Source: an endosymbiont 'TC1' of Trimyema compressum (GTDB taxonomy: Bacteria; Bacillota; TC1). From it: 64,000 bases of DNA. Position 1 is the first letter of the stretch, and every line of letters begins with the position of its first letter. The translations under genes and the position numbers were made by a program. The stretch covers positions 124,001 to 188,000 of the forward strand of contig NZ_CP014606.1 in NCBI RefSeq assembly GCF_001584725.1, in the 5' to 3' direction. The notes under the pieces are model-generated. The model searched no databases, was not told the DNA's origin, and saw nothing but the letters and a program-made list of their open reading frames with translations. Shown here in pieces: positions 8,074 through 35,214 of the stretch.

Positions 8074-9522
8074 ATGAAAAGTCAAAGTCTAGCCATGTTT
8101 AAAAAAGCTATTATGTGTCTATTGATAATAGCAATGTTATTCACTAGTTTGAGTTTTACTCAGCCTTGTTCATTAAAGGCGGAGGAGCCTGTAACTAATC
8201 AGACGGAAAAGCCTGATACTATTCAAGAGCAAGTTGTACAGGTTAAAGAAGAAGCCTCAATTGTAGGCTTACAACCTTTAGAGAATATACCCGCTAATCA
8301 GTGTCAGAAACAGGAAAAAACTTATTGATAAATGGAGGATTTGAAGACTCTTATGGTTCAATTAGTAATATTGGTGTTACGCAAGTAAGCGTAAATCAAA
8401 GTAATGGATGGCATGGAATACCGAATGAAGATAAGATAATGGTTTGTAAAGACAAAGGCCGTAGATAATGGAATTCCAAGCCATAGTGGAAAAGTTTTGG
8501 CAGAAATTAATGGTAATTTTCCAAATACTGGCTTTGCATCATATTATAGAACTATTCAAACAGAAAAGAATTCTTTGTATAAATGGTCATTTTGGCATCG
8601 AGGCAGACATGGCATAGATACTGCTAGAGTTTGGGTGAATAATGAAAGTAACATAGTAAGTGATGAAAATGGAACAACTGAATTTCTTGATAATAATTCA
8701 GCTTGGGGATATCATCAAGGGCATATAAACCCAGAAAATTCTAGCGAAATTAAATTAGGGTTTCAAGAATATAGAGTATCAGATAATTATTATTATAAAT
8801 GGTAACTTTATAGATGATTGCAGTCTAATAAAAATAGCATCACCAACAACTAAAGTAATAAGTATAGGTGACTCAGTACCAGCTGACAGCACACTAGTAT
8901 CCTTTGCAGAGAACGGGTATAGAGTAGTAAAAGCAGATCCGGCACCTGATTTTTCAACTACAGGAATAAAACAAGTGAAAATGAATATTATAGATTCATC
9001 TAATAGAATAGTTGGAAGTGTTGAATCAACAGTAGTTGCAATAGAAAGAGTTCATATATTATATTTTGATTTAAATAGTAATAACGGAATTACTCCAAAT
9101 AATCAAGTAATAAGAACAAGAGATTTAGCAAGAGTTGTAGATAATCCAATAAGAGAAGGCTATACATTTAGTGGATGGAATACAGAAGCAGATGGCAGTG
9201 TGGATTACAGTGGGATTTTAATAAAACAACAATGCTAGGTTATGATACAACCTTATATGCCCAATGGCAACAAAATAAGCATACAGTAAGCTTTAATGGA
9301 ACATCAGGACAAGGAATAATGAACCTTATTACCCTTATTGAAAGAGAAAGTCAAAATTTACCAAAAAATGAATTTTTAAGTGATGAAAATACTTTTATAG
9401 GTTGGTCAACACAAGAAGATGGAAATATAGAGTATACTGATGAAGCACTATTTACAATGGGAACAAGTGATGTTACTTTGTATGCGGTATGGGAAAAAAT
9501 TGACATAACATATACATTAGCT
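8074..9522 (+). pseudogene. InlB B-repeat surface protein, 5' part, frameshifted and cut by an IS
   Basis: ATG 8074 follows GAAGGGA at 8061-8067. The product starts with a signal peptide (basic MKSQSLAMFKKAIM, then a hydrophobic core, cleaved near CSLKAEE). Next comes a region opening with LLINGGFEDSYG, like the start of secreted carbohydrate-binding modules. From about 9050 there are two Listeria-Bacteroides (InlB B / Flg_new) repeats, each with the pattern GYTFSGWNTEADGS...TTLYAQW and FIGWSTQEDGN...VTLYAVW. Frames change near 8320, 8470, 8800 and 9220. The gene stops at 9522, where IS copy 1 begins. A matching B-repeat fragment lies immediately beyond IS copy 2 at 15668, probably its 3' end. 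Confidence 0.75.
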
Positions 9523-9559
9523 TGGAAGAATGTCAATAGAGTAGATAGAAAAAGTGAAA

Positions 9560-10380
9560 TTAAGTTTTAATAGAAGTGAAAAAATAGTCTTCTTTGGAAT
9601 TAGGAGAAAGAATGTTATTAGCAGAGTGGGGACGTATAGGGGGTTGTAGAAGCCCTCAATGTGTTCAAAGCAGGAAAGCTTAATTTGAGCAAAGGAAGAA
9701 AAAGACCTACGAAGAATTTCTTCTTTTTTCATATATTTAAAAAGGACTCAACGACAGCATTGTCCCAAGGATGAGAAAGCTTAGAAAAAGATTGAATGAT
9801 ACCAAAAGAATCAAGGAGCTTTCTAAAGATAAAAGAAGTATATTAGGAACCTCTGTCAGAATGAAAAATAAGAGAAGTAGAAGGTTTTTGAGAATAAAAG
9901 GCTTTGATAAAAGTATCCTTAACAAGAGAAGTATCAATTTTAAGAGAGAGCTTCCAAGCAATAATTTTACGAGAAAATAAATCCATATTTAGGTAGTTAG
10001 GGCAATCAAAATTGGGAATAGACCTCGGATGAATAAACCGAAGTTTGATAGTAGGCATTTTAGGAAGATTCATGTCAGTCATCAGGCGGCTCGCTCTACC
10101 AATACTGATGTTGATGCCATAGTCATAGGAAAGAAGAGCCTTAATCTTAGATGGGCCAATACGTCTCTTAGTAAGATGACAAATCTCCGAGAATAAGCTG
10201 ACGGAGTTTTTAATTCTCAATAGTTCTAGGAGAAAGTTTTTCCGAAAAGTATTTGTAATAGGAGCTGCGGTTCACTTTAAGGACATGACAAAGAAAAGAG
10301 ATAGCGTGCTGAAAACGAAGGGTATGAACAGCCATTAATCTTTGTCTGAGTGAGGCGTGAATATGGCAATTGCTTTTTTT
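9560..10380 (-). pseudogene. IS3-family transposase OrfB, copy 1, catalytic Asp deleted
   Basis: The DDE integrase-type transposase is readable across frames. HLTKRRIGPSKIKALLSYDYG is at the N-terminal side, then NYLN joined directly to MDLFSRKIIAWKL, and later HSDRGSQ with the second Asp. The 93-bp deletion removes 31 residues, including WASDITYI with the first catalytic Asp, so this copy cannot be active even with frames repaired. Frameshifts near the OrfB N-terminus, at VESFFKYM and near the C-terminus are shared with copy 2. Confidence 0.8.
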
Positions 10381-10639
10381 AAAATGATATTTTCCTCCTA
10401 GAGTCGAGCATTACGCTTTTGAAGATCCTTAATCTGCTTATTTGAAGATCCTTAATCTGCTTAGCGGTTAGAATAGTATCATCATCAATTCTAACCTGAG
10501 AATAAAGTTTAATCCACTTGTGTAAAGCAGACATGGAGACACCATATTCTTTAGAAAGTTGGGATTGAGTTTTACCGTTTTGGTGTAAATTAACAATACT
10601 TTTTTTAAATTCTTCATCGTATTTCTTGTAATTATTCAT
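10379..10639 (-). pseudogene. IS3-family transposase OrfA, copy 1 (with a tandem duplication)
   Basis: Encodes the helix-turn-helix protein MNNYKKYDEEFKKSIVNL with SQLSKEYGVSMSALHKWIKLY. It normally ends after KDLQKRNARL (72 codons in the other copies). Here a duplicated 23-bp stretch changes frame after KDLQ and extends it to 86 codons. OrfA recognises the element ends. Confidence 0.85.
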
Positions 10640-10717
10640 AATTTTATCCTTTCTTATGTGTCTACTTATTTAAAACATGTTTCACTTTTTCCTGTCTACT
10701 TTTTTAGTATATGTCCA

Positions 10718-11902
10718 AGAGAAGAAGACATTAAAGGTTTTTGGAATTGTTGCTAAAACAATAACTGTTTTGCTATAATTGGTGTTATAGCAGTTGTTTT
10801 ATTAATCAGTTTATCAAGATATTCCAGCGAGATAAGTGAAATTATGTTTACCTATAATGCTGTTAATAATCGTTTTTATGAACCTGTTGAGAATAAAAAG
10901 GCTTTACAAGGAGTGCCAAATGGTATTGTCTCATCATTTTAGATGATCCTTACTCAGAATATTTTAACAAAGCAGAATTCGGAAATTTTGTTAATCAAAT
11001 ATCTGGCTCATATGGAGGCGTTGGTATTCTTTTAGGCAAAAATGCTGCTGGCTATGTTGAGGCGGTTAAGGCTTACTCTAATACACCAGCAGAAAAGGCT
11101 GGGGTAAAAGAAGGTGACTTATTTTTACATGTTGGTGACCTTGATGGAATGGGAAAAAGACTGAAGAGATTAGTGGGATTTTAAAAGGGGAACCTAATAC
11201 GGAAGTAGCAATAACTGTTTTTAGACCATCTGAAAATAAGGAAATTAATCTTTCCATTACTAGAGAAATAATAAGTTTACCAAGTGTTTCGGGAGGTTTC
11301 CTAAAATCTGAATCAGATACTCTTTACGTAGAAATACCTTCTTTTGTTGAAAATACAAGTAGTGAGCTGGAAACTCTAATAAAAGGATTGGATAAAAAAC
11401 CGAAGAAAGTTATTTTGGATTTAAGAGGCAACGGTGGTGGATTAGTGGAACAAGCTATAAAGGTAGCTTCATACTTTGTTCCTGAAGGAGCCGTATTATA
11501 TGAATTAGGCAGAGATGCTAATTCCCTTGAAACATTTAATGTAAGTGGCGCTAACTTTCTAGATGTACCACTTGCAGTTTTAGTTGATGGCAATACTGCT
11601 AGCTCTTCAGAAATTTTAGCTGGTGCCATTCAAGATAGGCAATCGGGTAAATTAATTGGAGAAACTACTTATGGGAAAGCCGTTATGCAATCTGTTATTC
11701 CAACTCCAGCAGGCGGAGGTATTCGTCTAACCACAAAGTGCTATTTAACCCCTAATAAGAGAGATATTAATAAAACGGGTTAAAACCTGATAGAGAATTA
11801 GTAATGACAAGTGAAGATTTCTTGAAAATTGATAGAAAGAACTTGCCAGATGAAAATAATGATTTAGCGTTAAAGAAAGCACTTGAATTTTTTAATGAAT
11901 AG
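10718..11902 (+). pseudogene. S41 C-terminal processing protease, N-terminus cut by the IS and frameshifted
   Basis: No start codon remains: sequence beyond the IS edge (10717) reads straight into a basic stretch and a membrane anchor (VIAVVLLISLS near 10785-10815). A PDZ domain follows (GGVGILL...AEKAGVKEGDLFLHVGD) and then the S41 catalytic domain, with KVILDLRGNGGG at about 11407-11440, the catalytic-Ser motif NTASSSEILAGA at 11592-11625 and the Lys region ETTYGKAV. Such proteases cleave extracytoplasmic proteins at C-termini. Breaks lie near 10776, 10938, 11155 and 11780. The ctpA-uvrB neighbourhood is typical of clostridial chromosomes, so this is core DNA. Confidence 0.85.
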
Positions 11903-14440: not shown

Positions 14441-15384
14441 TTAAGTTTTAATAGAAGTGAAAAAATAGTCTTCTTTGGAATTAGGAGAAAGAATGTTATT
14501 AGCAGAGTGGGGACGTATAGGGGGTTGTAGAAGCCCTCAATGTGTTCAAAGCAGGAAAGCTTAATTTGAGCAAAGGAAGAAAAAGACCTACGAAGAATTT
14601 CTTCTTTTTTCATATATTTAAAAAGGACTCAACGACAGCATTGTCCCAAGGATGAGAAAGCTTAGAAAAAGATTGAATGATACCAAAAGAATCAAGGAGC
14701 TTTCTAAAGATAAAAGAAGTATATTGGGAACCTCTGTCAGAATGAAAAATAAGAGAAGTAGAAGGTTTTTGAGAATAAAAGGCTTTGATAAAAGTATCCT
14801 TAACAAGAGAAGTATCAATTTTAAGAGAGAGCTTCCAAGCAATAATTTTACGAGAAAATAAATCCATAATAACACAGAGATAAGCAAAAGAGGCATTTAA
14901 ATTAATATAGGTAATGTCACTAGCCCAGACTTGATTGGGCTGAGGAACATTAAAATTTTGATTTAGGTAGTTAGGGCAATCAAAATTGGGAATAGACCTC
15001 GGATGAATAAACCGAAGTTTGATAGTAGGCATTTTAGGAAGATTCATGTCAGTCATCAGGCGGCTCGCTCTACCAATACTGATGTTGATGCCATAGTCAT
15101 AGGAAAGAAGAGCCTTAATCTTAGATGGGCCAATACGTCTCTTAGTAAGATGACAAATCTCCGAGAATAAGCTGACGGAGTTTTTAATTCTCAATAGTTC
15201 TAGGAGAAAGTTTTTCCGAAAAGTATTTGTAATAGGAGCTGCGGTTCACTTTAAGGACATGACAAAGAAAAGAGATAGCGTGCTGAAAACGAAGGGTATG
15301 AACAGCCATTAATCTTTGTCTGAGTGAGGCGTGAATATGGCAATTGCTTTTTTTAAATGATATTTTCCTCCTAGAGTCGAGCAT
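14441..15384 (-). pseudogene. IS3-family transposase OrfB, copy 2, frameshifted
   Basis: A DDE transposase with both Asp motifs present: QVWASDITYINLN and FHSDRGSQYTS, then the catalytic Glu in DNAVVESF. Frame changes occur near 15187 (after SPRTIEN), near 14615 (VESFF, one T short) and near 14520 (a C run), and the final frame ends at 14441 with a stop after TSIKT. The same changes occur in copy 1, so they predate copying or are systematic base-calling errors at homopolymers. Confidence 0.85.
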
Positions 15385-22203: not shown

Positions 22204-22632
22204 CGAACCTTTAAAAAATAAAATAGCCTATAATCTATTTTGAAATATAGAAAAATCATTAACCATCGCTGTATGAAATTATATTTTTATATATGTTTTG
22301 ATTGAAAGCAATATCTTTTGGATGTTGCTTATTTTTTTAGAATATCTGTCAGAGCTACTTGAATCATACTAATGCTTCCTTGCATCCTATCTTACACTTA
22401 GTAATTTTCTAGTTTTTAATCTTAATATTTTCCTTTGTACGTTCAATTTTAACCATTTATAATTCCTCAAATTATACCGAATTTGATAATAACAACAGGA
22501 TTTTCTATTTTTATATTGACATGCATAAGTGTCCGTGATAGACTACTTATATTACTTGAATAGGTAATACGCGCGTAATAATAGCATAATTTGTATTCTG
22601 TGTTAATAGAGTTAAGAAAGGAGGGAGTTAGA
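22204..22632. other. intergenic region ahead of the WxL locus
   Basis: Holds a likely terminator (AGCAATATC near 22308 with GATGTTGCT near 22320, followed by TATTTTTTTA) and the WxL promoter. I see no gene between them. Confidence 0.5.
22516..22544 (+). promoter_or_regulatory. promoter of the WxL locus
   Basis: -35 TTGACA (22516-22521), 17-base spacer, -10 TAGACT (22539-22544). The transcript would have a leader of about 80 bases before ATG 22633. Confidence 0.55.
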
Positions 22633-23256
22633 ATGAAGAAAAAAATAAGTGTTTTATTATTGGGACTAATTTTTGGATTAGCGTTACCTACTTCTGTTTT
22701 ATTTGCAGATACTGTAGTATCAACAACAACTACAACTGCATCCGCTACTTTTTCTCTAGGAACATTAACTATGAATTATGTACCGGCTAATTTTACTTTT
22801 GGAACTTTGCCAGTGGCTATTAGTACAGTAACAGCAACATTAGGAGCTGAAGATAGTTATGATTTAGGTGTAACAGATTCTAGAGGTGGTACTAATGGTT
22901 ATAATGTTACTGTTAAAGCAGGTAAAATGAAGTCAATGGATGCTCAACATACATTGGGCGGGAATAATATCAAACTAATTAATGGTTCTACACAATTAGT
23001 TACTCCTGGTTCCGTTGAGGCTACTGCACCATACGTACAACCAATAATTTATGTTGATTTTGTTGATGGTAGTGGTGTTAGTGTTCCTTCAGTGGTTCAA
23101 GATGCTCAAGCAAATACTAATCAAGGTTTATTAGAATGGAAAACTAGCTGGACAGGAAATAGTATTTCATTAATTGTATTACCGGGTGAAGCAAAAGCTC
23201 AAACATATAGTACTAGTATTATATGGACATTAAATGATGTTCCACCAGCACTATAG
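22633..23256 (+). CDS. WxL-domain surface protein
   Basis: I start at ATG 22633 because of AAAGGAGGGA at 22616-22626, giving 207 residues; an upstream in-frame ATG at 22591 has no such site. A clear signal peptide (MKKKISVLLLGLIFGLALPTSVLFA) leads into a WxL domain: LEWKTSW near residue 160 carries the WxL-type motif, and the end YSTSIIWTLNDVPPAL matches the second conserved motif (Y-x4-WTL-x2-P). WxL proteins bind peptidoglycan non-covalently on the surface of Gram-positives. It is followed by its typical partner. Unlike its neighbours, this gene is intact. Confidence 0.88.
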   Translation: MKKKISVLLLGLIFGLALPTSVLFADTVVSTTTTTASATFSLGTLTMNYVPANFTFGTLPVAISTVTATLGAEDSYDLGVTDSRGGTNGYNVTVKAGKMKSMDAQHTLGGNNIKLINGSTQLVTPGSVEATAPYVQPIIYVDFVDGSGVSVPSVVQDAQANTNQGLLEWKTSWTGNSISLIVLPGEAKAQTYSTSIIWTLNDVPPAL

Positions 23257-23278
23257 CGGTGAGATTTTATTAGAACTT

Positions 23279-23313
23279 AAAAGTGACTGTTAGAAAATAA
23301 CGGTCACTTTTTG
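23279..23313 (+). terminator. hairpin between the WxL gene and its partner
   Basis: AAAAGTGACTGTTA and TAACGGTCACTTTTT pair around a GAAAA loop, with a short T tract. It is possibly an attenuating terminator, making the WxL protein more abundant than the gene that follows. Confidence 0.65.
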
Positions 23314-23340
23314 ACGCAAAATATAAATAGGAGTGTTTAA

Positions 23341-24336
23341 ATGAAACAATTACGTATTATTTTTGGAGTGCTATTTTTTTTTCTAATATTATTTTTTCCA
23401 TTAAGTGCTATTTTGGGAAATGATACAGCATTTGTATCTGAAATAATCCAGCCTGATAACCAGATAAGTAAATCAGCATCATTTTTTGATCTTGATATTA
23501 ATTCAGTAAAACAACAAGAGCTTGAAATTTTGCTTACAAATAAAACTAATAAACAGCTAGTGCTTGAGGGAGCGGTAACTAACGCTTGGACAACTATAAA
23601 TGGAGTTATTGATTATTCCTCAACTGAGTATCCTTTGGATTCTACTTTAAAAAATCCATTATCTTCTTTATTAGTATTAAATTCTAAAGAAATAGTTATT
23701 CCACCTATGGAGCAAATTCGAGTTACAGCAACTTTAAATATACCAGACAATATTCATGAAGGAGTAGTTTTAGGTGGAATTCAATTCTGTGAAAAAGGGG
23801 ATTCTTTCAATAATCCAAATGAATCAAGTGTTTATAATAAGTATGCAGTTGTAAAAGGTGTTAAATTAACTAAGGGGGAAATTCCTAACCCAAATATAGA
23901 GATTAGCAATGCTAAAGTATCGCAGTTAAGAAAAATACCTGCAATCACTGTTAATATTAAAAATACTGAGGCCACAATGATTGGGGAAATGAGTTTTAAA
24001 ACAGAAGTTAGAAAAGAAAATTCCCAAGAAATATTACAGTCTGATGAAACAAAACCAGTACAGATGGCTCCAAATTCAAATGTAGATTTGCCTATTTATT
24101 GGAAGGATACCACAATACAACCTGGGAAATATACTGTGCATGCAACTGTTGAAATAGCAGGGAAGACTTGGGATAACAACTTGAATTTTACAGTTGACGA
24201 TAAAACATCTAAAAAAATTGCTAATGCTGAAAAACCAGTAGATAATGTACTCACAATATGTGTAGTCATTATTGTAGTATTGATTCTGCTTAGTAGCATA
24301 TTAGCCTATTTATTAATAAGAAAAAATAAAAAATAA
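23341..24336 (+). CDS. WxL-interacting protein (DUF916-DUF3324)
   Basis: 331 residues: signal peptide (residues 1-25), DUF916 domain (about 30-150; VSEIIQPDNQISKSASFFDL, ending in EGVVLGGIQF), DUF3324 domain (about 160-295; PAITVNIKNTEATMIGEMSF), then a C-terminal membrane helix (LTICVVIIVVLILLSSILAYLLI) and a basic tail RKNKK. This is the standard architecture of the membrane-anchored partner that binds WxL proteins and, in some cases, host or cell-surface ligands. Start ATG 23341 follows AGGAGTG. It is intact and 84 bases downstream of the WxL gene, with a weak inverted repeat between (AAAAGTGACTGTTA / TAACGGTCACTTTTT at about 23279-23313), which may lower downstream expression. Confidence 0.9.
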   Translation: MKQLRIIFGVLFFFLILFFPLSAILGNDTAFVSEIIQPDNQISKSASFFDLDINSVKQQELEILLTNKTNKQLVLEGAVTNAWTTINGVIDYSSTEYPLDSTLKNPLSSLLVLNSKEIVIPPMEQIRVTATLNIPDNIHEGVVLGGIQFCEKGDSFNNPNESSVYNKYAVVKGVKLTKGEIPNPNIEISNAKVSQLRKIPAITVNIKNTEATMIGEMSFKTEVRKENSQEILQSDETKPVQMAPNSNVDLPIYWKDTTIQPGKYTVHATVEIAGKTWDNNLNFTVDDKTSKKIANAEKPVDNVLTICVVIIVVLILLSSILAYLLIRKNKK

Positions 24337-24402
24337 ATATTATAATTATAAATAATAATTAATATTATTAGCGCATAAGGCAAAATAACTAATAAAAGGA
24401 TA

Positions 24403-27400
24403 ATGGTTTTAGGATTAAAGTCATTAGCGTACCTATGAATATTACATTTAGGTATTGTTTTTTTAATGTGTATGCCTAATTTGCTAGCTGCTGACAATGT
24501 TACTTTTGAACAACAATTTCCTGATACATATACAGCTACTATTATTGCTGGCTATTTTGGGAAAAATAAAGAAGATGTTATGGACGCTAGTTTTTTATCT
24601 ACAACAGATTTAATGCTAAATGATAAAGGACTTGCTAACATTGATGGTATAGAAATTTTTACGAATTTACATACGTTAGAATTATCTAATAATAAAATAA
24701 CAACTTTACCAGAAAGTCTTAGTAATCTTACTACATTAACTTGGTTGAATTTTTCAGCAAATAAGGTGACTAAGCTGCCTGAAAATATAGGTAATTTATC
24801 AAATCTAAATTATATTTGTGCATCTGACAACCAAATTACTAGTTTGCCAATTAGTTTTAACTCTCTTCCAGCTAAAACTGAAAAATGGTTTTTAAATAAT
24901 CTGCTCCCAGTATCTGCAGGAACACAAGATCAGTTGTTGCTTAAGACTGGCCTTGACACTCAAACAAATTAACTCGAGATGCTCTAGATAATTTAGATTT
25001 AAAAAAGATGGTGTTATTACAATCAGGAGAAATTGTATCACCAAGCCATATATTTATATTAGATGATTATAGAAATGCAGCTACATTTGAGTCAATAAAT
25101 ATAGATGATTATTTTGTTGGAAATAATGCTAAAACTTCTGCTCAAATATCAGCAGCTGTAAGTGCTACAGGAACCGGTTTGTTTCCTAATAATAGCCCTG
25201 CAGCCGTAACTGAAGCTAGAGTTTTTTTAAATATTGTTCCATATTATAATCTCTCATTTGATTTAAATAGAGGTAGTGGTACCTAGCCTGATTCACAGCA
25301 AATAGTTGGTGGAGATAAAGCTACGGTAGTTACTAATCCAACAAGAACAGGATATGTTTTTCAAGGATGGAATACAGCACAAGATGGAAGTGGTGATACT
25401 TGAAATTTTGATATAAGTGTTATGCCAGAAAACGATACTGTATTATATGCTCAATGGAGTCCAGATGGTGAAATAATAGCAAATTTATTTCCTGATCCTA
25501 ATCTTGCTCAGGTAGTCGCAAATGCCGTGTCAGGTGGAGATATAAATGCAAGGTTAAATAGTGAAATGATTAATAATTGTACTTATTTAAATGCTGGAAG
25601 GATGGGAATTAAAGATGTTTCAGGTAATTCATTAACAAGTTTTTCCACTGAACTTTGTTTATTGCCAGATCTAAAGATATTAGATCTTAAAAATAATAAA
25701 ATAACAGAAATTCCAAAAGAAATAGAATTATTAACAAATTTGAATGAATTATTGATGGAAAAGAACAAACTAACAGGAATTCCAATTGAATTAGGAAACC
25801 TAAACAGCTTATATGCTTTAAATTTAGCTAGGAATCAAATAGTGGAAATTCCAAAAGAAATATGCAATTTACCTAGCTTACGTATTTTGGAATTAAGTGT
25901 AAACCAGATAACTAGTATACCTGGTGAAATTAAGAACTTAGTAAATACCTTAGCGGGTCTTAACCTAGGCAATAATTTATTAACAAGTATACCAACAGAA
26001 GTATGTGAGTTAGTTAATTTGGATGCTTTTGCAGCCTATGGCAATAAGCTAACGGCTATTCCTCATGAAATAGACAATTTAAAGTAAACTGTATTCCTTA
26101 GACTTTGAAAGAAACTCTTTGTTAAGTATTCCGCCTGAATTAAGAAATTTAGAAAACTTACGTTATTTAAGCCTTGAGAATCAAATGATTAAGTTGCCTA
26201 AAATGAAACTTACTGATTGATTCTACATTTACGCTTACTTCTCTTATTACAAATATGGATAGTATAGTTATACCACCAAGTAGTTCTGTGAGTGATACTT
26301 ATGAAAATACAATACAAGGAAATGATATTACTTGGACAGGTCTTAATAGCCAAGTATTATCGTTGAGTTTTGTATTTGAACAGCCAGCAATTACTATTGG
26401 GACGCGCACAATTAATTATGCAGGAACTGGTAACGCAGCCTTTTGGAGATTCTTACACTGTAAGTTTCAATAGCAATAGAGGCACAGGCACAATGGCTGG
26501 ATTTTCAATTTTTGAAGGAAATAGCCAAAATTTACCAAGTAATAGTTTTACAAGAGCGGTTATACCTTTGCAGGCTGGTCAACAAGCCAAACAGGTAGTG
26601 TGGAATATGCAGACCAAAGTTCTTATACCATGAGAACAAACGATGTAACTTTATATGCTGTTTGGAAAATAAATGATAAAGCAATTGCTGAGGTATTCGC
26701 AGACAAAAATTTAGCACTGGCTATAGCAGAGCAATTAACCAGTGGAGACGTTAATGCAATATTGACAGAAAATATGATTAATAGTTGTACTACATTAAAT
26801 TCAGAGTCTAAAGGAATTACAAATCTAGTTGGCATAGGAAAACTAGTTAATTTAAAGCAATTATTATTGGCAAATAATAAAATTATGTCTTTACCATTAG
26901 AACTAGTAAACTTAGTAAATTTGACTGATTTAACGTTGGATAATCAACAAATTACTTTGCAAAAAATGTCAAGTAATTCTTCATTTACATTAGCATCACC
27001 AATTAAAAATCAAAATGGTGATAGTGTACCACCGAATAGTAGTTTTGGAGATTATGTAATTAATGGGAATGATATTACTTGGAATAATCTTAATAATCAA
27101 GTGAGTTCCGTGAGCTTTACATTTGAACAGGAAATCTCCTTAGGAAAGGTTAAAGCAACATTTTCAGGAATGGCAATAAAACCATTAGATGTTGAAATAG
27201 CATATGTGTTATCATTTGGTTTAAATGGAGGAGAAGGGAATATACCGCCGTCTCAAAGTGTGAAAAGTGGATCACTAGCTATTGTGAGGTAAAGAATCCA
27301 ACTAGAAAAAGGTTATAGTTTTAAAGGTTGGAATACAGCAAAGGATGGTAGTGGAAGAACATGGGATTTTGCTATAACGAAAATGCCAGATGAAAATATA

Positions 27401-27578
27401 ATGCTATATGCACAATGGCTAGAAAATGGAAATGATAATTCAAATAATGTGATAATAGACAATTCAACAGGAACATTGCTACCTAGGACAGGTGAATTTT
27501 CAATGTTAATAACAAGTTGCTTTAATGATGTTAATTGGGGTTGTTTTTTGTTTTCCGATTATTAATAGAAAAAGATAA
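24403..27578 (+). pseudogene. giant LRR / InlB-repeat / LPXTG surface protein, multiply broken
   Basis: About 1050 residues if repaired. ATG 24403 begins a signal-like segment (IVFLMCMPNLLAAD) interrupted by TGA at 24436. Domain order: leucine-rich repeats (24640-24880, units like LPESLSNLTTLTWLNFS), a linker, an InlB B-repeat (to YAQW at 25456), LRRs (25640-26210), B-repeat (26460-26665), LRRs (26810-26950), a linker, B-repeat (27190-27420), then the sorting signal LPRTG at about 27480 with hydrophobic segment and NRKR tail ending at 27578. Between 25008 and 26087 the frame is continuous and broken only by TAG 25284 (where Q is expected) and TGA 25401 (where W is expected). Elsewhere the breaks are indels. 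Likely a sortase-anchored adhesin working with the WxL pair. Confidence 0.8.
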
Positions 27579-27612
27579 TAGTTATTTTTGTGGCTTATGA
27601 GGAGGAAAAGTG

Positions 27613-29400
27613 TGAAAAAAATAATATAGAAAAATATTATTTATAATATTTATAGTAATTTCCCTTGAAATAGGAATGGGAATGAGTGGGGCAACAAATG
27701 GTGGAATTGGAAAACCAATAAAAGAGAATTTTACTGATATTAATTTGGCTCAAGCAGTTGCTAGTGGAGATGTTAATGCAGTTTTAACAAGCGAAATGGT
27801 AACTAACTGTACTAATATTAAAGCTACAGAAAAAAATATTACTGACTTGTCAGGAATTGGAGTTCTAACTGAATTAGAATATTTGGATTTAGCTAGTAAT
27901 AACATATAAACTATTCCTGCTGAAATTGGTGATTTGAATAACTTATCATATTTGAGTTTTTTCTAATAAATCTATCAGTGCTATTCCATCTGAAATAGGA
28001 AATCTAACGAAGTTAGAAACTTTTAATTTAATTACAAACTCAATTACAAGTTTACCTTCGGAAATAGGAAGCTTAACGATGTTGAATTCACTAAATTTGA
28101 GTCATAATCAACTAACAAAGTTGCCAACAGAAATAGGTTCCTTATTAAATCTATCTTTTATAGATTTAAGCTATAATTTACTTAGTGTTTTGCCAACAGA
28201 AATAGGTAATATGGCTCATTTGACAAATTTACTATTAGAGGATAATAGATTAACAAGTTTACCAGACGAAATATGCAATTTAATAGAATTAAGGAATTTG
28301 GTAATTTATTTTAATCTATTAACAAGTTTACCAAATGAATTTGGAAATTTAAAAAATTTAGTAACTTGTGAGTTGTGGGAAAACTTATTACCAGATAGTT
28401 ACCCTAGTACTTTGAATGCATTGGGTTTCCCTAAGATAGTGTTTACTTATAATCCACAATCACAATTAAGAATAATAGGAGTTGTTTCTCCATTTGAAAT
28501 TACCAAGGAATCTGATTTATCAAAGCTTGATTTATTTTCATTGGTTGAAATAAACCAAGCCTCCTATGGGTCTGTAATTAATTTATCATCAGATTTTAAC
28601 TTAGAATTAGAGTTAGTTAATTATAAGAATATGAATAATAATGTTGTTAATATTAGTGACTATATCCAAAATGGCCTTGTAAAAAAGAGTGGTACAATTT
28701 ATGCTCAAGTACAAATAAAACCAGCTAATAACGGACTGTTTCCTAGCACAAATAATCATTTGGTAACTAATGAAAAAATACAATTAAATTTTAAGAAATC
28801 TTATTCAGTAAATTTCGGTAGTAATGGTGGCGAAGGATTGATGAATTCTCTATCCATTCCAGAAGGAGATATTGCGAAATTACCAATTAATAGCTTCACA
28901 AAGGCTGGTTATACTTTTAATGGGTGGGCAACAATTAAAGATGGTAATGCAGTATATGTTGACCAGGATTCTTATACAATGGGAACAAGCGATGCAACCT
29001 TATGTGCAGTATGGACATCCGCTACATACAGTTACTTTTGATAGTAATGGGGGGGGTAGTGAGACAATGAGTTCGCTGTCAATGCCAGAAGGAGCAACAC
29101 AAAATTGCCGACTAATGAATTTACAAAGGCTGGTCAACAATAAAAACAGGATTAGCAGAATATGTTGATGGTGCTTTATTTACAATGAAAACAGAAGATA
29201 CTAAATTGTATGAAATTTGGGATAATACATTGTTACCAGACCAAGATTCGAATAATAAAATTGGTCAAATTGATGGGAAAGACTTAACAAACAAATTGCC
29301 AAAAACAGGAGAGGGTAGTTATTATTTGTTAGATTTAATGATTTTAAGCATAGGCTTAATTGGCTGCTATTTTTCAATTAAAAAAGAAAAGGAAAAATAA
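27613..29400 (+). pseudogene. second LRR / InlB-repeat / LPKTG surface protein, broken
   Basis: GTG 27613 follows AGGAGG (27601-27606). A signal segment (ILFIIFIVISLEIGMG), LRRs (27840-28380, units such as LPTEIGNMAHLTNLLLEDNRLTS), a linker domain, two InlB B-repeats (28800-29020 and about 29030-29215), and a full sorting signal: LPKTG at 29296-29310, hydrophobic LLDLMILSIGLIGCYFSI and KKEKEK tail. It is a paralogue of the preceding gene with one LRR block. Breaks: near 27630, TAA at 27907, a T run near 27957, 29040 and 29120; the middle (28079-29041) is open. The intact sorting signal shows sortase anchoring was the ancestral state. Confidence 0.82.
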
Positions 29401-29819
29401 ATAATATTTTCTAGAATTAAAAAACATTTAGAGTAATAGGGCAAATAGAAGCTTTTTATCTATACGAAATATTGTTTTGATGATTTAATTGATACTGTGT
29501 AAACAAAGATGAGAAAATTTTGTTTACACAGTTTTTTGTTTTTTATATATTAAAGATAAATATTATCAATAATGGCTTGCTTCTTGATATAATGAACAAG
29601 AGATATTATTTAAACGGCTTACTACAAATTATAGTTAATAGTTAATAGTTAATAGTTAATAGTTAATAGTTAATAGTTAATAGTTAATAGTTAATAGTTA
29701 ATAGTTAATAGTTAATAGTTAATAGTTAATAGTTAATAGTTAATAGTTAACTATAACTAGATTAATTTAGTAAATGTTTAAAACGTAACTGGACAAAATA
29801 ATGAGGAAAGTAATAAAGA
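29401..29819. other. intergenic region with terminator-like hairpin and tandem repeat
   Basis: Near 29499-29537 CTGTGTAAACAAA and TTTGTTTACACAG pair around a short loop and are followed by T residues, a good terminator for the surface-protein genes. The rest is the heptamer array (separate entry) and the topB ribosome site GAGGAAAG. No gene is seen. Confidence 0.7.
29631..29749. repeat. heptanucleotide tandem repeat (ATAGTTA) x17
   Basis: Seventeen perfect copies of ATAGTTA without a single substitution, flanked by TTATAG on the left and CTATAA on the right, so the array edges are inverted (TTATAGTTA / TAACTATAA). It lies between the surface genes and topB, about 70 bases before the topB start. 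Perfect homogeneity points to recent expansion by slippage, or to an assembly artefact of a collapsed array. Confidence 0.97.
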
Positions 29820-31547
29820 TTGAAAACATTAATTTTTTCGGAGAAACCAAGTGTTACAAAGGATTTGGTAGAAGCTATTGATCCAACAGCAAGATATCAC
29901 AATGGTTATTATGAGAGTGTTGATTATATTTTCACCAATGCAATTGGCCATTTACTCAGGTTGAAAAACCCTGAGGAAATTAATACAAAATACAAGAATT
30001 GGAATCTTGTTTCTCTACCTATTCAAATACACAATAAAATAATTTCGAATTATACAGTAAATGAAAAGACGAAAAAACAACTTAGTACTGTTGCAGATTT
30101 GTTTAAAAGAAACGACATTAATTCTATTGTAAATGCAACGGATCCTGATAGAGAGGGTGAGTTGATTTTTAGTACTCTTTACTCATATTTAGAATGTACA
30201 AAACCCAGTCTGCGTTTAATTTTAAAAGATATGACCGCTGAAGGTATTAAGGAACAGCTTGCTGTTTTAGAGCCTGGAGAAAAGTATAATGGATTGAAAG
30301 CTTCTGCTTATTCTAGATCTATAAGTGATTAATTTAATTAGTAGGTGTGAATATTACAAGAGCTTTAACAGTGAAATATGGACGTGGTAGTGTATTGTCT
30401 GCAGGGAGAGTACAAACACCAACTCTTAAATTAATATATGATCGAACTAAAGAGAATTTAGCCCACAAAAAATCTATTCACTATGTAATTAAAGCACAGA
30501 TTGAAGATAGTGATATTTTACTGACTTTAGATAATAAAAAGTTTCGGAAAAAAGAAGAAGCCGAAAAGTTAATTGAAAATTTTCCAGATAAGTTACCTAT
30601 AGAAATGAATCGAAGAAAAAAGATTAAAGTTCCACCGCCACTTCCCAACCTACTGGATATTCAAAAGAATGCCAATAATAAATGGGGATATAAAGCGGAG
30701 GAGACTTTGAATACTGTTCAATCTTTATACGAAAAATACAAAGCTGTTTCTTACCCTAGAACTGACTGTAATTTTGTTACTGCAAATACAGCTTTAAAAC
30801 TTGATAAAAAATTAAGTAAGTTCGAAAAATTTTAAAAATATCCTTATATAGATTTTAAAAATCTTAATAATAAGAATATTGGGGAGATAACAGCTCACGA
30901 AGCTATTACGCCAACAGGTGTTATTCCTAACTATAATGTAATGAGTGAAAAAGAAATTAATATTTATACAGAAATTACCAGCATGTTTTTTCAAATTATT
31001 GTGAAAACTATTCTTATAATGACATTATTTATACAGCTAAATTTGAAAAATATCTTTTTAAGACGATTGAGAAAGAGCTATTAAATGAAGGTTATTTGAA
31101 AGTCTATAAAAATGTAAACCATAAATATAAAGCTATTTTTGAATCAGGTCTATATTCAATAAGATATCAAGTGGCTGAAGTGGAAAGCAAATCTAAACCT
31201 TTTTTACTGAAGCAACCCTAATTTCAAAAATGGAAAATATTCATAATAAAGAAAAAGGGGAAATTAAAAAAATCTTAAAAGATATTAAAGGAATTGGGAC
31301 ACCTGCAACAAGAGGCTCTATTATTGAAACTCTTTTTAAGAGGGAATATATACAAAATAAAGGAAAATCAATTGTTACAACAGATAAAGGCAATAAGTTT
31401 ATAGAACTTTTGCTAGCTATAGATTCAAGACTATTGGATGTAAAGTATACGGCAGATTTAGAAACTAGTTTGAAGGAAATGGTTAGTAATCCCGCAGATT
31501 TCAAATCATTTTTAACAGAAGTTAATGCCTTAACGTCAGAATACTAG
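29820..31547 (+). pseudogene. topB: DNA topoisomerase III, frameshifted
   Basis: Starts at TTG 29820 after GAGGAAAG. The product is a type IA topoisomerase: TOPRIM domain with SEKPSVTKDL at residues 6-15 and ATDPDREGELI (metal-binding DxDxxGE-like) near residue 107, then GRGSVLSAGRVQTPTL and the active-site Tyr in AVSYPRTDCNF at about 30745-30778, then HEAITPTG and a C-terminal GIGTPATRGSIIETL. These cytosolic enzymes decatenate DNA. Breaks: near 30330 (SISD then eight extra or altered bases before LVGVN, not a homopolymer), 30835, 30995 and 31205. Without repair, only the first 170 codons would be translated. Confidence 0.88.
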
Positions 31548-31708: not shown

Positions 31709-33094
31709 TTGGAAATTGAGAAGAAAAAGCGACTTAAAGGTAAAATTAAAATATGGCTTAATACCTTTATATATTTTATTTATATTAATAGGTGTGGAAT
31801 TATTAGCTCGCTTAAATCCTTTAGAGGGTATTATAGCGATGATTATTAATCCATTTGCATTTTTAGTTAATCTTTTAATTATTAGTTTATGCTTTATATT
31901 TCTATTAATTCTTTTTAATAATAAATATATTGGCTCTTCTATTCTTTTAATAGTAAGTATTATTTTAGGAGTAGCTGCAAAGATTAAATATGATTTTAGA
32001 GGCACCGGTTCTTCACCATCAGATTTTTTAATTATTGGAGAAGGGGCGCATATGGCTAATGCTTTGTCAACGGAGTTTCTAATTAAAACAGGTACTATTG
32101 TTGCCGTTTTAATTATTATTGCTATTTTTTTAATGAGAAAAATGATGGTGCCTAAATTAACTATACTACAAAGAATAAGTAGTTTAGGCGTTACAATAGT
32201 TTTTTGTATACCTTTATATTTTTTTTACACCAGCAGGTATTATTATTAAAAATGTTGCGGGAGGTTCGTAAGGGAACTGCTATGGAAGTATGAGCCTATT
32301 TTTATTTTGTTTCTCAGTTTAATAATAAAGGTGATATTAAAGAACTAGTAAGTGATAAAGAGGATTTGAAAAGGCGAATAGATCAACGTTTTGGTTCTAT
32401 TCTTGAAAATATAGATAATAATAAAAAAAGTGGCGAAAAACCTGATATTATTTATATTCAAGCTGTATCTGTTCAGACCCATGCACCTTTTGGAGCCAAT
32501 AAAAACCCCAACTACAATGTAACGTATACCGGGGGATAAATCAACACGAAAAAGTACTCTTGAAGAATTTAATGGTTATCTTAGAAATTTAAAAGAAACA
32601 GATGATTCATTAAGGATTTTAATGGATTATTTAAAAACAAGAGATAAAGAGACTATAGTTGTATTTTATGGGGATCATCAACCGAGATTAGAAATGTTTC
32701 CTTATGCAGATTCTTTAACTATGGAAGAAAAGCAAAAAAAAGACATGAAGTCGGGGCATTTGTTTGGAGCAATAAGGAAGCTTTAAAAACAATAGAAACT
32801 GTAATTGATATGGCTTCCTTAGGAGAAAAAGGATTAACTGCAGCATCTGTTGATATGCCAAATTATTTCTATATTTTAAGGAATTTGAGGGAAGAAGAGA
32901 AAGTTAATAGTTTTAATAGTTTTTATCTACTTAAAGATGGTCAATATTACTTTAAAGGACAACCTGAATATGAAGAAATTTATAAGGACTATTTTTTAAT
33001 TTACAAAGATATATTAGATGGGAAACGCTATATTGAACAAGAAAATGATAAATGGTTAATAGAAAATAATAATGACTACAAGGGGGCTAAATAA
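31709..33094 (+). pseudogene. lipoteichoic acid synthase-like sulfatase, catalytic core deleted
   Basis: TTG 31709 follows AGGAGG. The N-terminal part has about five membrane helices (for example YILFILIGVELLARL) as in LtaS/YfnI proteins. At about 32460 the reading jumps from KPDIIYIQ, the start of the extracellular sulfatase domain, directly to AVSVQTHAPFG, a late segment of that domain. The roughly 200 residues between, with the nucleophilic Thr, are missing. The end keeps ETIVVFYGDHQPRLE. LtaS enzymes polymerise glycerol phosphate. Indels near 31755, 32245 and 32530 and TGA at 32291 add to the damage. Confidence 0.78.
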
Positions 33095-33115
33095 AATACG
33101 TTGGGAGCTTTTTAA

Positions 33116-35214
33116 ATGAAAAAGAAGTTTATTGTGTCTTATTGGCAGTGTTTATGTTAGCTGTGCTGTTTGGATTTACTAATGATAGTAATGTTATTAA
33201 AGTTGAACCAACAAAAATAGAAGCAACTGTAGGAGAAAAAGGCGCTATTAACGAAGAAATTTTGGAGGAAGCATTAAAACAGACTAGTTTAAACTATAGT
33301 AGTGGTGATGCTAATATTATTACTATTGATAATAAGGGTAACTGGGAAGCTTTGGCAGCAGGGAAAACAGAAATTTTTGTAAGTCTTTCGTCAGAGGTTA
33401 AACCAGTTAAAAAAGCATTGAAGTTATAGTTAATAAAAAACAGGTTGTGAACACCCTTTCCTCTAAAAGTAGCGGAGCTGTACCATTAGTGGGAAATGTT
33501 GTTCCTGATGTAGTTTTGAAAAAGCTATTAATGAACAATTGTCAAGGCCTGTTGATACAGATATTACAGTTGCTGATTTAGAGACTTTAACATCTCTTAG
33601 TATATATGGTCCTTATAAGATGGGTTCTACAGAACCTAGAGTTAAGTCTCTTGAGGGACTACAATATGCAGTTAATCTATCCATGCTCAATATTTCTAAT
33701 GGTGATTTAAGTAATCCAAACTCTATTTCAGCCATTGCTAATTTAGTTAAACTTGAGAGTCTAGATTTATCTTTTTCCAATGTGACATCAGATTCTTTAC
33801 GTTATCTTGTTAATTTAACTAAATTTAAATTCTTTAAGTCTCTATTATAACAATATAACAAATTGACAAATTTAGCACTTATTGAGCCTTTATTAGAGGC
33901 AAAACTACAGCAGTTTAGAAATAATCATGATAGTTCAGAGTTTTACTTTTATGTTATTCGTAACCCTATTATGGATTTTAGAGGAGGAAGACCTTACTTT
34001 GACTTAAGAAGAGAGTTTTTAATCTATCATGGTTTGACGCCAGCTGAAGCAGATGTTTATGGAGCAAATTATGTTATGAGAAGTATTAGTCCTCATATTT
34101 ACGAAAATGCAAGAACAATTAAATCCAGATTGGTCTGTTCATGGAAATTGGGGTGCTGATTTTGTAGCTAATAAACTGCCTGATATTTGGGCTTTAAGGG
34201 TGAATGAACAATCAAGCCCAGAAAAACAGAATTCCAATTAAAGAAGCAATTATTGATTTTAATGGAGATAAGGCTATTTTTGGTGTTGATTATAATTGGA
34301 AAGAGGATATTGGCAATTCTTATATTTCATTGCCTTTCTATACTAGAGCAGATGAAAAGTTTATGTATTCAAATGACCTAACGAATGGCTATAATAATAG
34401 TAGTCCTTGGACAGATACCGTAGAGGATTATTTTGCATTAGAAACAAGAGCTAGTTTTGATTATCCAGGTGAGACGGAATATTATTATAAGGGGAGAGAC
34501 TATAACATTGTTCTATACAACCCTCATGCTACAGGATCCTCAGATAGACAAGAGCCCATAAATACAGCAGATGGTAACATTGCAACCTGCTATTATTTAG
34601 AATTTAAAAATTTTAATGACCCTGTTTTATTACCAGGTAGTACAGAATATTATTATCCGAATATGTTTAAAAATACAGCAGATACAACAACTATTACGTT
34701 ATCCAGTAGACCTTTTTTAAAAGAAATGAATATACCGATTTTCAATTATTCTGGAAGCATTGTCTATAAGCAAGTTATTCATTGGATTAATCCAGAAGCC
34801 CCTGTAATTGATGGACTAACCAATATAAAGATTACAGCAGGTACACTTTTTGATCCTTTAGCTGGTGTAACAGCCTATGACCCAACAAGAGATGGGGAAA
34901 ATCCAAGACGGCTTAACACCAAAGGATATTACGAGTAGTATTGTTATTGTATCAGGTAGTGTAGATATTAATACACCAGGGACCTATGTAATTGTCTATA
35001 AAGTCTCACATTAGCCCTTATGGCATAGAAACAACAGGAGAACGCATTATTACTGTTGTAGCTTCTGATAATGGTGGCGGTGATAATAATTTGGTTCTGG
35101 AATAACTGGTGGTGGTACACTACCAGGTAATGGTAATGAAAAGCTATATGTTTTAGGAATATCTTTGTTAACCTTAGGTAGTTTTATGATTTTAAGAAAA
35201 AATCAAATAAGTAA
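33116..35214 (+). pseudogene. secreted LRR/Ig-like surface protein with degenerate sorting signal, broken
   Basis: ATG 33116 leads into a signal peptide (LLAVFMLAVLFGFT, across an indel near 33140). Then an Ig-like bacterial region (IKVEPTKIEATVGEKG...SSGDANIITIDNKGNWEALAAGKTEI, Big_2-like), a few LRRs (33600-33840), an unrecognised region (33860-34740) and a DUF5011-type domain (PVIDGLTNIKITAGTLFDPLAGVTAYD, TPGTYVIVYKVS). The C-terminus has LPGNG where LPXTG is expected, a hydrophobic segment YVLGISLLTLGSFMI and a basic tail. I end it at 35214, reading RKKSNK through one missing A. Frames change at least six times. Confidence 0.65.

Follow-up and report, generated by a model that had tools for sequence, protein, structure and literature searches.

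A WxL–WxLIP gene pair intact beside broken LRR/InlB adhesin genes in a Firmicutes genome outside the Bacilli

Here, we report that an intact gene pair for a WxL surface complex, i.e., a small WxL protein and its DUF916-DUF3324 partner (WxLIP), stands in one row with two broken LRR/InlB adhesin genes in a 64,000-nucleotide stretch of DNA (hereafter, the window) from a Firmicutes genome outside the Bacilli (1.62 Mb, 97% complete). The complex was probably gained by horizontal transfer into this non-Bacilli lineage, would then have been amplified within the genome and is now decaying; the transfer and its timing we infer from distribution, trees, and composition. Multi-copy WxL genes in a reduced genome of this kind widen the range of the system and tie it to a plasmid-borne pair, and the locus offers a natural experiment on what a surface complex retains once its adhesins go. 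The features of the locus are as follows (window coordinates).

22516–22544, + strand: promoter-like sequence ahead of the WxL gene, TTGACA-17-TAGACT, the second hexamer being preceded by TG (consensus match only)
22633–23256, + strand: small WxL protein, 207 aa (PF13731 profile, alignments, and sequence)
23279–23311, + strand: hairpin between the WxL and WxLIP genes, 14 bp stem, 5 nt loop, T-rich 3' arm
23341–24336, + strand: WxLIP, 331 aa, with signal peptide, DUF916 (PGBD), DUF3324 (HBD), C-terminal transmembrane helix, and basic tail
24403–27565, + strand: pseudogene A, LRR - InlB repeat - LRR - LRR_adjacent - InlB - LRR - LRR_adjacent - InlB - LPRTG (27479–27493)
27613–29400, + strand: pseudogene B, LRR - InlB - InlB - LPKTG (29296–29310) - hydrophobic stretch - KKEKEK

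The intact WxL–WxLIP pair

The window WxL protein matches the PF13731 profile with 64.4 bits (cut-off 25) in an undisturbed frame; a signal peptide is followed by the WxL domain, and a Shine-Dalgarno-like aaaggaggg lies upstream of the gene. The distal motif YxxxLTWxLxxxP is present as YSTSIIWTLNDVP, with the second motif read as IIWTLNDVP. The proximal Trp-x-Leu that follows Asp-x-Arg-Gly in the dual motif is absent from this protein; DSRG is there followed by Tyr-Asn-Val, i.e., the first motif is GYNV with Tyr replacing Trp. As the dual motif is incomplete, we class the protein as a PF13731 member by profile and not as a canonical dual-WxL protein. The first-motif residue is Trp in 101 of 111 aligned WxL domains and Tyr in nine, the Tyr type taking in all five aligned copies from this genome and both Lactococcus garvieae copies. 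Promoter-like matches of the kind listed above are no commoner in the sequence than in its shuffles, and the AlphaFold model of the WxL protein (two-row alignment) was unusable, with a pLDDT of 31.

The WxLIP frame is likewise undisturbed and matches PF06030 (98 bits, residues 34–149), then PF11797 (110.7 bits, residues 161–294), ahead of a C-terminal membrane helix (residues 302–330), the helix being taken from an AlphaFold model of moderate quality that was built from a two-row alignment. Its ectodomain can be aligned by sequence end to end with the solved Enterococcus faecium WxLIP (PDB IDs: 9i1y and 9i25; E 4e-21) and the fold matches too, at an identity of ~24%; the window WxL gave a weak match to chain A of 9i25 (E 0.003). 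Ribosome-binding site, signal peptides, helix, and both stop codons of the pair are in order. The strong RNA hairpin between the two genes (−17.1 kcal/mol, z −4.7) is possibly a terminator or attenuator and could favor WxL output over WxLIP.

By analogy with E. faecium, in which WxLIP is seen bound to a long WxL (PDB ID: 9i25), the window WxLIP would be anchored in the membrane through its C-terminal helix, clamping WxL with DUF916 and presenting DUF3324. WxL itself would be exported and held non-covalently on peptidoglycan, as suggested by the E. faecium work (PMC10599100; PDB ID: 9i25).

Broken LRR/InlB adhesin genes downstream

Matches to LRR, LRR_adjacent, InlJ_IG, and Flg_new/InlB repeat are spread over several frames between 24.4 and 29.4 kb. 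By three-frame reading, pseudogene A carries ~10 stops or frameshifts, with the signal peptide and the sorting signal among the sites hit (its end reads LLPRTG, and the sorting-signal tail is displaced to another frame), and pseudogene B carries ~5, including in the signal peptide; disruptions also fall in the repeats. The domains, i.e., LRR, LRR_adjacent, InlB repeat, and sorting signal, are those of internalin-like LRR-InlB-LPXTG proteins; the genes are broken. Sequencing error is an unlikely source of the breaks, as the sampled housekeeping operons are mainly intact and nonsense codons occur besides frameshifts. Profile matches and three-frame reading confirm the initial annotation in placing a WxL gene, its DUF916-DUF3324 partner, and two LRR/B-repeat sortase substrates in one row, the pair intact and the adhesins broken.

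The LRR/InlB proteins, wall-attached through the single sortase of the genome, may formerly have been the binding arms of a WxL–WxLIP surface layer in a putative partnership; in the present strain, the presumed arms are pseudogenes and the WxL–WxLIP core of the window locus is still intact. Just past the LRR pseudogenes, the 7-mer ATAGTTA occurs in 17 perfect copies (window 29631–29750), and the locus is followed immediately downstream by a fragmented DNA topoisomerase III gene (topB type; window 29817–31547). Pieces of InlB or LRR type are also found in further broken genes for surface proteins at window 8440–9567 and 33091–34935.

Other WxL copies, sortase, and decay in the genome

The whole genome has eight PF13731 matches, every one in an open frame of ≤234 aa, and the same search found no large WxL protein. 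They fall in at least four clusters (the window, 73.5–76.8 kb, 1171.7–1172 kb, and 1534 kb), with a weak extra match at 649 kb; PF06030 (WxLIP) matches occur at three of these clusters. The 73–77 kb locus (L017, contig 1 66001–86000) keeps an intact WxLIP and one intact WxL, and the two further WxL genes that flank its WxLIP on both sides are broken; the window locus has one WxL. The 1171 kb WxL/WxLIP pair is broken and the 1534 kb WxL is without a start. The earlier suggestion that the window pair now works alone is therefore not borne out, as the genome holds another intact WxL and WxLIP along with further broken copies. One intact sortase lies elsewhere, at 603.7 kb, and is class D/E-like. 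InlB-repeat matches number 37, many in broken frames, so the adhesin layout, initially taken as the most unusual one in the window, belongs to a family scattered over the genome. The housekeeping regions sampled are for the most part intact, unlike the accessory regions.

Several side observations concern these clusters. In L017, two WxL genes that point in opposite directions have a 512-nt inverted repeat in common (9111–9622 and 10280–10791; 96% complementary, 657 nt apart), the minus-strand copy being frameshifted in the signal peptide; the repeat may reflect gene conversion in the recent past or an invertible segment, by which signal peptides would be swapped. A small secreted domain, 'AVYVDPKINLNL..', for which we found no convincing Pfam family, adjoins WxL genes and ends an LRR protein (L017 6895–7299; L019 3222–4340, C-terminal end; L019 5159–5719), with 60% identity between two loci. 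Near-identical copies of an IS3-family-like transposase are repeated at window 9846–10271 and 14613–15245, L017 11977–13256 and 15424–16685, L018 16133–17132, and L019 10887–12135, several of them lying no more than a few kb from a WxL cluster. A fragment resembling, by eye, a tyrosine integrase C-terminus (L018 12179–12448) lies ~2 kb from a broken WxL/WxLIP pair. Tryptophan biosynthesis genes (L028 4966–6222) look broken by eye, a sign of ongoing gene loss.

Host lineage and distribution

In the 16S tree, the genome joins its order in a 100/100 clade that lies outside the Bacilli (98.4/99) and, with weak support (81/64), nearest to Clostridioides and Vescimonas; 16S identity is 88% to order mates, 82.7% to C. 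difficile, and 82.3% to Bacillus. None of the 10 class genomes sampled, this one included, was found in the Bacilli. Lactobacillales is thus excluded as the host, which belongs to a minor Firmicutes lineage outside the Bacilli. The clostridial origin proposed in the initial annotation, taken as a place in "Clostridia" proper, is weakly supported by 16S. The neighbors that had suggested it, SelD, DapL, and CobQ (a fragment), are present in the window, as is DapF.

Firmicutes WxL proteins are reported to be 99% in Bacilli in surveys (PMC9772566), and the first description of such clusters reported none in clostridia (PMC1534035). WxL and WxLIP are missing from all nine other class genomes and, over the cut-off, occur in just one other genome of a 398-genome phylum sample, a Bacilli genome. 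This genome (G245) had looked like a second clostridial holder, a reading rejected because it is identical to G402, found in the class of Shouchella (Bacilli). A scan of genome contigs gave Shouchella as the sole match. WxLIP-like proteins elsewhere in the phylum are below the cut-off and branch apart. In the class genomes sampled, the locus is thus not a standard feature of its own family. Because InlB repeats occur in six of the 10 class genomes and WxL/WxLIP in no class relative, adhesins of this type are probably native to the class, with the WxL pair as an acquisition.

Trees and composition

Both window genes group with one L. garvieae plasmid pair, apart from all other Bacilli. In the unrooted WxLIP tree, which otherwise holds 43 rows from Bacilli plasmids and chromosomes, the three copies of the genome group together (98/94), with one L. 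garvieae plasmid protein as their sister (100/98). In the WxL tree (111 rows), the five aligned copies and two from L. garvieae form a clade of seven (98/91); the L. garvieae WxL nests among the paralogs of the genome, and monophyly of the genome copies is not rejected (p-AU 0.35). The window WxL is ~50% identical to the L. garvieae plasmid WxL and 35–41% to its own paralogs. Among 72,556 plasmids, the L. garvieae plasmid is the only one to match the window WxL at E 1e-5, and the top-scoring match in 395 Lactobacillales genomes is 36% identical. Contig 2 gave no plasmid relative and a scan of viral contigs no match; matches in the phage set come from fragments of Listeria and Enterococcus, and some of these records are very short.

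For WxL and WxLIP, GC and codon usage fall inside the genome range or near it, with low GC3 in WxL alone, i.e., the composition is ameliorated. Recent transfer is rejected on these grounds, since native-like composition indicates that the entry was not recent. Of the transfer or wider distribution proposed initially, transfer is favored by the absence of the pair from class relatives and by the tie to the plasmid; recent entry is not. A transfer that is old, and of either direction, is likely on these sequence comparisons.

Proposed history and competing readings

Absence from all class relatives makes transfer likely; loss in these relatives could, however, give the same pattern, as the genus is represented by one genome and the class by nine more. 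An old Firmicutes trait, kept here by vertical inheritance and lost everywhere else in the class and phylum, would fit the native-like composition of WxL/WxLIP and the split of the three WxLIPs from the other 44 (in unrooted trees). However, this requires loss in nine of nine class relatives and in nearly all of the phylum sample and does not account for the close relation to just one L. garvieae plasmid; we regard it as very unlikely. Another possibility is that the pair moved not from Bacilli but from this or a close unsampled lineage to the L. garvieae plasmid, consistent with the placement of the L. garvieae WxL among the paralogs and with a subfamily that is varied in this genome and elsewhere on one plasmid only. 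The nesting is not significant, however, and in the WxLIP tree the genome copies form their own clade with L. garvieae as sister, so that this direction seems somewhat doubtful. The broader proposal, that a non-Bacilli Firmicutes lineage is the main home of a separate WxL/WxLIP subfamily (Tyr in the first motif, sortase-anchored adhesive partners, no large WxL) and gave the L. garvieae plasmid its copy, is unlikely in our opinion.

As for the decay that would follow transfer and amplification, the whole locus may be a dying remnant, including a WxL pair that is now functionless and intact by chance or because its decay comes later; genes on both flanks are broken, as are most of the WxL/WxLIP paralogs elsewhere in the genome. 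We consider this rather unlikely. There are ~15 disruptions in ~5 kb of LRR genes (~3 per kb) versus none in the 1.6 kb pair, in which equal density would give ~4.9, with a chance of zero of ~0.7% by a rough hand calculation. Moreover, the second locus likewise retains one intact WxL and one intact WxLIP, and the signal peptide, helix, and both stop codons of the window pair are in order. The contrast in disruption density hints that the pair is retained rather than decaying at the rate of the LRR genes.

Comparison with known systems

The Csc/WxL clusters of Lactobacillus plantarum, Enterococcus faecalis, and E. faecium (PMC1534035, PMC9772566, PMC10599100) share with the window locus a small signal-peptide WxL beside a DUF916-DUF3324 membrane protein, with LPXTG proteins in the row. 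Here, however, the host is outside the Bacilli, the whole genome has no large WxL, the first motif is Y-N-V instead of W-x-L, and one WxL stands beside WxLIP where those clusters have two. At the structural level, the window WxLIP ectodomain is similar to that of E. faecium alone (9i1y) and with long WxL (9i25), although the identity is low. The Listeria monocytogenes lmo0549 locus (WxL class 2 internalin, small LPXTG, WxL, DUF916) also has LRR, LPXTG, WxL, and WxLIP in one row; there, the WxL domain is on the LRR protein itself, whereas the LRR/InlB proteins of the window carry LPXTG. The nearest relatives of both window genes in everything searched are the pair on L. garvieae plasmid NZ_CP141718.1, which has the same WxL-then-WxLIP order and Tyr in the first motif, and adjoins a BspA-type LRR protein and a small LPXTG protein. 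This pair is plasmid-borne with genes annotated as intact, and its neighboring LRR protein is of another type, ending in a WxL-like stretch (by eye). Rows of LRR, LPXTG, WxL, and DUF916 are thus already known from Listeria and the L. garvieae plasmid, and the window locus is set apart by its host, the Tyr in the first motif, the lack of a large WxL, and its LPXTG-ended LRR proteins.
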